Positions 52,981-57,781 of a stretch of DNA of 64,000 bases are shown here, piece after piece. How positions within the stretch are numbered: position 1 is the stretch's first letter; every line of letters begins with the position of its first letter. The stretch covers positions 1 to 64,000 of the forward strand of contig JAHEDX010000002.1 in the NCBI GenBank assembly GCA_024641005.1, in the 5' to 3' direction. The position numbers and the translations under genes are program-made. The DNA comes from Acidimicrobiaceae bacterium (GTDB lineage: Bacteria; Actinomycetota; Acidimicrobiia; Acidimicrobiales; Ilumatobacteraceae). Under the pieces are notes generated by a model. It was not told the DNA's origin and ran no database searches. It saw only the letters and a program-made list of their open reading frames with translations.

Positions 52981-53823
52981 ATGCCAGAGCTCCCCGAGGT
53001 CCAGGCCCACGCCGAACGGCTCAGCGACGAGTTCTCCGGACGTGTGCTCGCTCGATTCCACCCGATCAAGTTCACCGCATTGCGGACCGCGGTCCCCGCT
53101 CCCGACGAGGCCTACGGCCGTGCGTTGCTCGGAGTGAGCCGCCGGGGGAAGTACCTCTTGCTCGAGTTCGAACCGGTGCAGTTCGCCGTACACCTGATGC
53201 AAGGCGGACGCCTGCTCGTCGATCGCCAACAGTCGCAGAAACCACGAGGCGGCCAGGCCCGCTTCGTGTTCGAGGGCGACGGCCCCGCCCTGTTGTTGAC
53301 CGAAGCAGGCACCGAGCGGCGGGCAGGCGTGTGGTGCCTGCCGGCTGCCACCGCATTGTCGACCCCGCCCCTCGATGTACTCGGACCCGAGGCCGACCTG
53401 GTGACCCCCGCCGAGATGCTCGAGCTGCTCGCGGCCAAGAATCAGCGCATCCACGGCTTCTTGCGCGATCAGCGCTCGATCGCAGGCCTCGGCCGGCGGC
53501 TGGCGAACGAGATCTGTCATCGGGCGCAACTCAGCCCGTTCGCGATGACCGGCAAGCTCGGTCCCACCGGCGCGGCGGCGCTCGTCGAAGCCATCCGGGC
53601 GGCCGTCGACGAGGGTCTTGCCTACGAGCGCACACGAACCGACATGAGTTCGTCGAAGGATCGGCCCAGCGCGGTGCACGGCCGGGCCGGCGAAACCTGC
53701 CCGGTGTGTCGACAAGTAGTACGCGCCGTCGAGTACAGCGGATACACGGTGAACTACTGCGCCTCGTGCCAGACGGGCGGCAAGATCCTCGCCGACAACA
53801 CAACGAGCAAATTCCTCAAGTAG
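52981..53823 (+). CDS. Fpg/Nei-family DNA glycosylase with substituted DNA-contact residues
   Basis: A 280-residue protein starting MPELPEV: Pro2 and Glu3 are the catalytic base and acid of Fpg/Nei enzymes. SRRGKYLLLEF supplies the conserved Lys, and a C4 zinc finger is present (CPVCRQVV ... YCASCQTGG). Two normally conserved DNA contacts differ: the Asn of GxGNxYxxE reads Arg (GLGRRLANE), and the Arg of the zinc-finger GRST loop reads Tyr (SGYTVNYC). Glycosylase chemistry may be kept, but specificity is probably altered. The last ten codons are the first copy of a tandem repeat. Confidence 0.85.
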   Translation: MPELPEVQAHAERLSDEFSGRVLARFHPIKFTALRTAVPAPDEAYGRALLGVSRRGKYLLLEFEPVQFAVHLMQGGRLLVDRQQSQKPRGGQARFVFEGDGPALLLTEAGTERRAGVWCLPAATALSTPPLDVLGPEADLVTPAEMLELLAAKNQRIHGFLRDQRSIAGLGRRLANEICHRAQLSPFAMTGKLGPTGAAALVEAIRAAVDEGLAYERTRTDMSSSKDRPSAVHGRAGETCPVCRQVVRAVEYSGYTVNYCASCQTGGKILADNTTSKFLK

Positions 53824-53999
53824 ATCGAACTGCCGGGTCACCGAACTGCGATCCACCATCGACAACACAACGAGCAAATCCCTCGAGTAGATCGAACTGC
53901 CGGGTCACCGAACTGCGATCCACCATCGACAACACAACGAGCAAATCCCTCGAGTAGATCGAACTGCCGGGTCACCGAACTGCGGTCTACCATCAGCAA
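53794..53999. repeat. three tandem copies of a 67-bp repeat
   Basis: Units start with GACAACACAACGAGCAAAT at 53794, 53861 and 53928. Copy 1 covers the last codons of the Fpg-like gene, including the TAG; copies 2 and 3 are nearly identical, and a fourth start lies at 53995 directly before the glgM GTG. The period is not a multiple of 3. The final unit carries a TACCAT where others have CACCAT, creating the glgM -10 box. Confidence 0.9.
53988..53993 (+). promoter_or_regulatory. -10 box (TACCAT), leaderless start at 54001
   Basis: TACCAT ends 7 nt before the GTG of glgM. It is the last tandem copy; in earlier copies the sequence is CACCAT, so repeat drift apparently made or kept the promoter. 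Confidence 0.55.
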
Positions 54000-54000
54000 C

Positions 54001-55155
54001 GTGCGCATCGGAATCCTCACCCGCGAATATCCGCCCGACGTCTACGGGGGTGCCGGCGTCCACGTCGATTTCCTCGTACGCGAACTGGTCAAACTGGCCG
54101 AGGTCGACGTGCACTGCATGGGCGAGCCGCGCGACGGTGCGACCGCTCATTCCGAACACGAACCGTTCCTCGACGGCGCCAACGCGACCTTGCGCACCCT
54201 CGCCGCCGACCTCGGCATGGCCGACCAGACAGCAACCTGCGATCTCGTGCACTCGCACACCTGGTACGCCAACATGGGCGGCCACCTGGCGAAGTTGCTG
54301 CACGGCATCCCCCATGTGGTCACTTCACATTCGCTCGAACCGCAACGGCCCTGGAAGGCAGAGCAGTTGGGCGGCGGCTACCGCGTGTCGTCGTGGGCCG
54401 AGCAGACCGCGTACGAGGCAGCAAACGCCGTGATCGCCGTCAGCCACGGTTCGAAACGCGACGTCATGGCCTCGTACCCGAAGCTGGACGAATCGAAGGT
54501 ACACGTCGTCCACAACGGCATCGACACCGGCTTCTACCGCCCCGATCCGAACGTCGACGTGCTCGAACGCATGGGTGTCGACCCGAGCCGCCCGTCCGTC
54601 GTGTTCGTGGGGCGCATCACCCGCCAGAAGGGCGTGCCCCATCTGCTGCGGGCCGCGCTGCAGTTCGACGACTCGGCCCAGTTGGTACTGCTCGCCGGCG
54701 CCGCCGACACACCCGAACTCGCAGCCGAGACCGACGCCGCGATCGCGCAACTGCGGGCCAGGCGCGACGGCGTGTTCGTCGTGTCGGAGATGCTGCCTCG
54801 CGACCAGGTGCGACAGGTGCTCACCCACGGCACCGTCTTCGCCTGCCCATCCGTCTATGAGCCACTCGGCATCGTCAATCTCGAGGCGATGGCATGCGAG
54901 ACAGCGGTCGTGGCCAGCGACGTCGGCGGCATCCCCGAGGTCGTCGCCGATGGCGAGACCGGCCTGCTGGTGCACTTCGACGAGCGCGACACCACTACGT
55001 TCGAGCACGAGTTCGCAACGGCCGTCAACGAGGTACTCCGAGACCGACGACGCGCCGACGCCATGGGGCTCGCCGGCCGCGAGCGAGCGGTGCGGGACTT
55101 CGGCTGGGACGCCGCCGCCCGCAAGACGATGGCGATCTACGAATCGGTACTGTGA
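54001..55155 (+). CDS. glgM: GT4 glycosyltransferase, GlgM-type maltose-1-phosphate/glycogen synthase
   Basis: A 384-residue GT-B enzyme of the actinobacterial GlgA/GlgM group: LTREYPPDVYGGAGVHVDFL at the N-terminus, HSHTWYANMGGHLAK, SLEPQRPWKAEQLGGGY and the nucleotide-binding SVYEPLGIVNLEAMACETAV, all typical of GlgM. It uses ADP-glucose to form maltose-1-phosphate for GlgE or to extend glycogen. No glgE or glgC is in the window. The GTG follows a leaderless-type box within the tandem repeat. Confidence 0.87.
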   Translation: MRIGILTREYPPDVYGGAGVHVDFLVRELVKLAEVDVHCMGEPRDGATAHSEHEPFLDGANATLRTLAADLGMADQTATCDLVHSHTWYANMGGHLAKLLHGIPHVVTSHSLEPQRPWKAEQLGGGYRVSSWAEQTAYEAANAVIAVSHGSKRDVMASYPKLDESKVHVVHNGIDTGFYRPDPNVDVLERMGVDPSRPSVVFVGRITRQKGVPHLLRAALQFDDSAQLVLLAGAADTPELAAETDAAIAQLRARRDGVFVVSEMLPRDQVRQVLTHGTVFACPSVYEPLGIVNLEAMACETAVVASDVGGIPEVVADGETGLLVHFDERDTTTFEHEFATAVNEVLRDRRRADAMGLAGRERAVRDFGWDAAARKTMAIYESVL

Positions 55156-55246: not shown

Positions 55247-57781
55247 ATGGCGAACATTCCCGAACGGCCGACGCTCGACGGCATCGAAGAACGCTGGGCC
55301 AGCCAGTGGGACTCGGATGGCATCTACCGCTTCGACGATTCGGCCGTGCGTGCCGACGTGTTCTCGATCGACACCCCACCCCCCACCGTGTCGGGCTCAC
55401 TGCACATGGGCCATGTGTTCAGCTACACCCACACCGACACGATCGCTCGATTCCAGCGCATGAGCGGCAAGTCGGTGTTCTACCCGATGGGGTGGGACGA
55501 CAACGGCCTGCCGACCGAACGCCGTGTCCAGAACTACTACGGCGTCCGGTGCGACCCGAGTCAGCCCTACCAGGCGGGCTTCGAGCCACCGTTCCGAGGC
55601 GACCCACCCAAGAACCACCACGCGATTCCCATCTCGAGACCCAACTTCCTCGAGCTCTGCGACGAGCTCGTCGAGATCGACGAGCAGGTTTTCGAATCGC
55701 TGTTCCGCCGCCTCGGCCTCAGCGTCGACTGGAACCATCTCTATGCCACCATCGACGAACGCAGCCGCCGCGTCAGCCAGCGTGCCTTTCTGCGCAACCT
55801 GGCGCGTGGCGAGGCGTACAGCCAAGAGGCGCCCACGATGTGGGACGTCGACTTCCAGACCGCCGTCGCTCAGGCCGAGATGGAGGACCGCGACCGACCG
55901 GGCGCATACCACAAGATCGCCTTCCACAAGACCGATGGCACGGGCGACGTACTGATCGACACCACACGACCAGAGTTACTGGCCGCCTGTGTCGCACTGG
56001 TGGCTCACCCGGACGACGAGCGCTACCGGCCACTGTTCGGTACCACCGTGCGCACCCCGCTGTACGGCGTCGAGGTGCCGATCGTGGCCCACGAACTCGC
56101 GCAACCCGACAAGGGCACGGGAATTGCGATGATCTGCACGTTCGGCGACACCACCGACGTCACCTGGTGGCGCGAACTCGACTTGAACATGCGCCCGATC
56201 ATCGGCCGCAATGGCCGGATACTCGCCGATCCACCCCAGGGCGTCGACGCCGAGGCCTACGAGACGATCGCCGGTCTCAACGTCAAGCAGGCCCAGCGCA
56301 CCATCGTCGAGCAGCTCCAGGCCTCGGGCGAGATGCTCGGCGAGCCGGATCCGATCCAACACCCGGTGAAGTTCTACGAAAAAGGCGACCGTCCGCTCGA
56401 GATCGTCACCAGCCGCCAGTGGTACATCCGCAACGGTGGGCGCGGAGCTGATCTCCGCAACGCGCTGGTCAAGCGTGGCGGAGAGATCACCTGGCATCCC
56501 AGCCACATGCAGCATCGCTACGACAACTGGGTCGAGGGGCTCAACGGCGACTGGCTCGTCAGCCGTCAGCGGTTCTTCGGTGTGCCGATCCCCGTGTGGT
56601 ACGCCCTCGACGCCGATGGCGAGCCCGACCACGCACGACCGCTGCTGCCCGACGAGTCCCAGCTGCCGATCGATCCGTCGACCGACATTCCGACGGGCTT
56701 CACGGCCGATCAGCGAAATCAGCCCAACGGGTTCATGGGCGACCCGGACATCTTCGACACATGGGCGACCTCGTCGCTCAGCCCCCAGATCGCCGGGCTG
56801 TGGGAGGAGGACGGAGCCGGTCTCTTCGATCGCGTGTACCCGATGGACATGCGTCCCCAGGCTCACGACATCATCCGCACCTGGTTGTTCGCCACGGTCG
56901 TGCGCAGCCATCACGAACACGGCAAGGCACCGTGGGCACACGCCGCGCTCTCGGGGTGGATCCTCGACCCCGATCGCAAGAAGATGTCGAAGTCGAAGGG
57001 CAATGTGGTCACACCGATCGACCTGTTCGACCAATACGGAACCGATGCCGTGCGCTACTGGGCGGCCTCGGCCCGCCCCGGCACCGACACGGCGTTCAGC
57101 GAGGACCAGATGAAGGTGGGACGCAAACTCGCCAACAAACTGTTGAACGTTTCGAAGTTCGTGTTGTCGTTCGGTGAGGTCCCCGAGGGCACACAGGCCA
57201 CCGACCCGATCGATCTCTCGATGCTGGCCAAACTGGATGCGGTCATCACCGAGGCGACCAGCGCCTTCGCCGCATTCGACTATGCCCGGGCGCTCGAACG
57301 CACCGAGTCGTTCTTCTGGTGGTTCTGCGACAACTATGTCGAACTGGTCAAGGGTCGCGCCTACGCCACGCGCGGCGAGGATGCCGCCAACTCGGCCCGT
57401 GCGGCGCTGCTCGCGGCTCTGAGCGCGATCCAGCGACTGTTCGCCCCGATCCTGCCGTTCGCGGCGGAAGAGGCGTGGCGGTGGTGGAACGATGCGAGCG
57501 TGCACGTCGAACCATGGCCCCTTCCCACCGGCACCCAGGGCGACCCGAGCCTCATCGATCCCACCCTCGAGGTGCTCGCGCTCGTGCGCCGCGCCAAGAC
57601 CGAGGCCAAGGTCAGCCAACGCGCCGAGGTCGCATCGCTGCAGGTCGGAGCGCCCGCGACGATGCACGAAGCGCTGTCGGCAGGCAGGGACGACCTCACC
57701 GAAGCCGGGTCGATCCTCCAGATCCTGGTCCGCGATGCCGATGGTCTCAATTGTGAGATCGAACTCGTCATGTCGACGTGA
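55247..57781 (+). CDS. valS: valyl-tRNA synthetase, short archaeal-type
   Basis: An 844-residue class I synthetase. HIGH-type motif is PTVSGSLHMGHVF; KMSKS is KKMSKSKGNVVTP. The editing domain has TRPELLAACVALVAH and GTGIAMICTFGDTTD; bacterial enzymes usually read GTGAVKITPAHD here, and the CTFGD form is the archaeal/rickettsial type. The usual C-terminal tRNA-binding coiled coil of bacterial ValS is missing, which explains the shorter length. It is likely the cell's valine enzyme. Confidence 0.95.
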   Translation: MANIPERPTLDGIEERWASQWDSDGIYRFDDSAVRADVFSIDTPPPTVSGSLHMGHVFSYTHTDTIARFQRMSGKSVFYPMGWDDNGLPTERRVQNYYGVRCDPSQPYQAGFEPPFRGDPPKNHHAIPISRPNFLELCDELVEIDEQVFESLFRRLGLSVDWNHLYATIDERSRRVSQRAFLRNLARGEAYSQEAPTMWDVDFQTAVAQAEMEDRDRPGAYHKIAFHKTDGTGDVLIDTTRPELLAACVALVAHPDDERYRPLFGTTVRTPLYGVEVPIVAHELAQPDKGTGIAMICTFGDTTDVTWWRELDLNMRPIIGRNGRILADPPQGVDAEAYETIAGLNVKQAQRTIVEQLQASGEMLGEPDPIQHPVKFYEKGDRPLEIVTSRQWYIRNGGRGADLRNALVKRGGEITWHPSHMQHRYDNWVEGLNGDWLVSRQRFFGVPIPVWYALDADGEPDHARPLLPDESQLPIDPSTDIPTGFTADQRNQPNGFMGDPDIFDTWATSSLSPQIAGLWEEDGAGLFDRVYPMDMRPQAHDIIRTWLFATVVRSHHEHGKAPWAHAALSGWILDPDRKKMSKSKGNVVTPIDLFDQYGTDAVRYWAASARPGTDTAFSEDQMKVGRKLANKLLNVSKFVLSFGEVPEGTQATDPIDLSMLAKLDAVITEATSAFAAFDYARALERTESFFWWFCDNYVELVKGRAYATRGEDAANSARAALLAALSAIQRLFAPILPFAAEEAWRWWNDASVHVEPWPLPTGTQGDPSLIDPTLEVLALVRRAKTEAKVSQRAEVASLQVGAPATMHEALSAGRDDLTEAGSILQILVRDADGLNCEIELVMST

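Follow-up and report, generated by a model that had tools for sequence, protein, structure and literature searches.

The junction between an Fpg-like DNA glycosylase gene and a glycogen synthase-type gene in the window (the whole stretch of DNA that was analysed, 64,000 nucleotides) holds a 67-bp tandem repeat that is probably a locus-specific minisatellite, produced by a small tandem duplication and one unequal crossing-over, in which the outer copies hold function and the added 134 bp would most likely serve as neutral spacer. Three head-to-tail copies occupy 53793–53993 without indels, and Tandem Repeats Finder gave a corresponding call (53793–53994; period, 67; copies, 3.0; matches, 97%; no indels), so that the array in the contig is confirmed as genuine. 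This agrees with a sequence-only reading of the same DNA, which had described three 67-bp units extending from the end of the Fpg gene to the synthase promoter, with a period that is not a multiple of three. The same reading had the units reach the GTG start codon of the synthase gene; the number of units was correct, but the last unit ends at 53993 and is followed by a 7-nt spacer (CAGCAAC; 53994–54000, + strand), a diverged match to the first 7 bases of the unit. With tandem, head-to-tail units in the 10–100 bp range and high identity (67 bp × 3, 97%), the array corresponds to a minisatellite. At an offset of 67, the longest exact run was 99 bp, compared to longest tandem runs of 11–14 bp when the whole window was shuffled ten times, and a tandem-repeat census of a 169-kb sample that included the window identified one further array of similar quality (39 bp × 2.2).

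A total of four substitutions separates the three copies (all + strand). Copy 1 (53793–53859) and copy 2 (53860–53926) differ solely in the 5′ half, at unit positions 21 (T/C) and 26 (A/G), while copy 2 and copy 3 (53927–53993) differ solely in the 3′ half, at unit positions 59 (A/G) and 62 (C/T). Copy 2 is a chimera composed of a copy-3-type 5′ half and a copy-1-type 3′ half, which is what unequal crossing-over between two copies that had already diverged should give, and neither functional half is kept in it. The same chimera is exactly what an assembler would yield by looping twice through a two-copy locus, and, as the genome was assembled in 175 contigs, a true locus with fewer copies, to which units were added by looping in the assembly graph, has to be considered. 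Even so, the longest exact repeat would be just 32 bp with two copies (99 bp with three and 166 bp with four), and final contigs are normally built with longer k-mers. Further, repeat collapse is the commoner error and the four substitutions require two diverged copies in any case. As only k-mers of 32 or less could turn two copies into three, at least three copies are the likelier state, misassembly of two copies into three is unlikely, and the copy count at the locus may even be above three.

The Fpg/Nei-like DNA glycosylase gene (52981–53823, + strand, 280 amino acids) scored over the cut-offs for PF01149 and PF06831, and its top NCBIfam matches were Fpg models, for which it scored below the equivalog cut-offs. 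The nearest named relatives of the gene were from Ilumatobacter and Ilumatobacteraceae assemblies. Copy 1 opens with 31 bases made up of the final codons (DNTTSKFLK) and TAG stop (53821–53823) of this reading frame, after which CACCAT occurs at the −10 register; copy 1 is coding and the other copies are not, as had been proposed previously. Copies 2 and 3 would encode SKSLE (F to S, K to E) where copy 1 encodes SKFLK, such that copy 3 contains a relic Fpg end. The C-terminus ...ADNTTS[K/R]FL[K/R] was shared by the window protein and 25 other distinct family homologues with ~50% identity or more (one remote homologue at 44% was left out of the comparison), with F in all of the other family members (25/25) and K or R as the last residue.

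Downstream, the GT4 glycogen synthase-type gene (GlgA/GlgM; 54001–55155, + strand) initiates at a GTG and matched TIGR02149 at 566 bits (cut-off, 302), a model that covers both GlgA- and GlgM-type actinobacterial enzymes and does not separate the two. The gene had been named glgM in the sequence-only reading. This name is without support because the GlgE N-domain (PF11896) had zero matches in the genome of origin (94% complete) and GlgC was present above cut-off in the same genome; of the two markers of GlgM membership, only the TIGR02149 match was found, and the assignment of the gene to glgM is unproven, though it could still hold with 6% of the genome missing. Beside the synthase gene, a valine–tRNA ligase (55247–57781) matched the NCBIfam alt_ValS exception model (1418 bits).

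Copy 3 ends in TACCAT (53988–53993, + strand), the −10 box (TANNNT) of a predicted leaderless promoter, with its first T at −13 and 7 nt between the box and the GTG at 54001. Published work on actinobacteria (PMC3160421, PMC3898074) describes a TANNNT ~12 nt upstream of the start codon as the mark of leaderless genes, and the placement at the synthase gene, with the first T ~12–13 nt before the start codon, corresponds to it. All of the family glycogen-synthase genes read, including that of the window (9/9), possessed a TANNNT with its first T placed at −13 or −12; the 80 bp upstream of these nine genes contained no other TANNNT. The motif is rare in the window (80 hexamers over the 64 kb, both strands counted), and 19 of the 80 precede, by exactly 12–13 nt, a start codon followed by ≥80 open codons; for each strand, 3–6 hexamers occurred at each of the spacings 12 and 13, compared to 0–4 (mostly 0 or 1) at other spacings. 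Leaderless transcription is likely to be widespread across the window, and the locus is further evidence that the lineage depends on leaderless TANNNT promoters. In the −10 register, copies 1 and 2 read CACCAT and lack the T that is invariant in the nine TANNNT boxes. It had been noted previously that T in place of C in the last unit produces the TACCAT box. The last copy does hold the box, but the direction of the change would be the reverse of a gain: with TANNNT common to 9/9 family genes, copies 1 and 2 are most simply read as having lost the box. The gain of a promoter in copy 3 was rejected, as the box occupies the same place in all nine of the genes read.

The closest relatives belong to other species and have one copy, and relatives with this gene order lack the array. 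The closest syntenic relative (L070; synthase, 87% amino acid identity) has the same SCP2–Fpg–synthase–ValS order, one copy and no repeat, and reducing the window to one copy by removal of 134 bp would leave a gap of 43 bp, close to the 41 bp found in G007. In L070, the sequence CGACAAC, identical to the first 7 bases of the repeat unit, occurs twice at a distance of 108 bp, in the end of the Fpg gene and immediately ahead of the GTG. This microhomology at both edges was seen in one relative, L070, and the window spacer now reads CAGCAAC. A first step in the formation of the array would be duplication of the 67-bp segment bounded by two CGACAAC boxes, one within the final Fpg codons and the other just ahead of the synthase start, probably through slippage or recombination at the 7-bp microhomology, after which the spacer would have mutated from CGACAAC to CAGCAAC. 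The two internal junctions between copies (CATCGACAACACAACG) fit a duplication between 7-bp boxes of the CGACAAC type. Based on the pattern of substitutions, the upstream copy would then have kept the Fpg C-terminus and lost the −10 box, while the downstream copy would have kept the −10 box and lost the Fpg C-terminus. Lastly, as suggested by the chimera, the misaligned copies would have crossed over to produce a middle hybrid with neither function. In its present state, Fpg would still terminate in copy 1 and the predicted leaderless promoter in copy 3 would still drive the synthase gene. The retention of working parts in only the outermost copies favors an ordinary small duplication over a regulatory device, and in the likeliest reading the array is a neutral minisatellite with an end under selection on either side. 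As such, the locus shows plainly, on a small scale, what becomes of a tandem duplication over time, with selected halves kept in the outer copies and neither half kept in the crossover copy between them.

Mycobacterial MIRUs have a similar unit size and run from stop codon to promoter, and those at senX3-regX3 overlap gene ends. A dispersed intergenic repeat (MIRU/REP-like), a unit of which inserted at the locus and was then amplified, would resemble the array in both size and position. Against this, the unit is confined to one place in its own 4.1-Mb genome (175 contigs, 94% complete), exact-pattern scans returned no match to the unit in the species collection or in viral contigs, a DNA search of 200 family genomes matched essentially just the conserved Fpg coding end, and copy 1 is native fpg sequence. 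Such an origin has next to no probability, and a MIRU-like repeat, which should occur at many loci, was rejected based on the single place in the genome. The gap between senX3 and regX3 in the Mycobacterium tuberculosis complex holds MIRUs (PMC2639699), which similarly place repeat units between two co-directional genes, though MIRUs are a dispersed family and the 67-bp unit is found at one place. A literature search on Ilumatobacter repeats and on MIRUs at senX3-regX3 found nothing directly comparable.

A role for the number of units in tuning expression of the synthase gene, through a change in the DNA upstream, in the distance from fpg read-through, or through hairpins in the individual units, is quite improbable. 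The array is directly upstream of the −10 box, the 99-bp identity makes changes in copy number plausible, and a weak hairpin could form in each unit. However, hairpin z-scores from folding of the units (−0.7 to −1.8) were within chance, relatives of the same gene order lack the array, the upstream copies have lost the −10 box, and the core promoter (−73 to −8) is entirely in copy 3. A sigma-70 and terminator scan found no site, terminator-like sites included. Copy 3 by itself reaches from about −74 to −8 relative to the synthase start and, as the core promoter region is wholly within it, a change in copy number would leave the core promoter untouched; an earlier proposal that such changes move the promoter relative to upstream DNA applies only to DNA beyond about −73. 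It had also been proposed that both proteins would survive a change in copy number, which is mostly right, in that contraction through the 32-bp identity block of copies 1 and 3 would keep both. Contraction through the 20-bp 5′ block, however, would turn SKFLK into SKSLE, and contraction through the last 5 bases would put CACCAT at the synthase gene. Were copy number to vary and affect expression, the locus would provide a natural promoter-spacing series, though nothing observed here points that way.

The array resembles bacterial intergenic minisatellites and VNTR loci in its short, near-identical, head-to-tail units, which contract or expand through recombination or slippage. It differs in that each unit joins a gene end to a promoter region, with the functional halves in the outer copies. 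In common with described leaderless actinobacterial promoters (PMC3898074, PMC3160421), the TACCAT is 7 nt from the GTG and conserved across the family, whereas here the synthase promoter region has become part of a tandem duplication whose two upstream copies have decayed.

Other arrays were observed in neighboring contexts. In L076 (3360–3464, Ilumatobacteraceae), a 29-bp × 3.6 array occurs between fpg and a different downstream gene, with TACGCT six nt before an ATG in only the last, diverged unit and AACGCT in the other units. This array suggests that such arrays arise repeatedly, without showing a role. A broader proposal, that short arrays across leaderless promoters recur in the lineage, where they would put tunable distance or insulation between fpg read-through and the next gene, with L076 as an independent case, is highly improbable. 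In Intrasporangium flavum (L116:1238–1436), a perfect 95-bp × 2.1 tandem repeat takes in a TAGGGT box and, six nt further along, an ATG with the opening codons of the reading frame. A 101-bp × 2.9 array with paired GGCGATTAAATC / GGCGATTTAATCG motifs is located near a second Fpg-like gene (L049:3402–3692), and similar arrays are present in L047 and L048.
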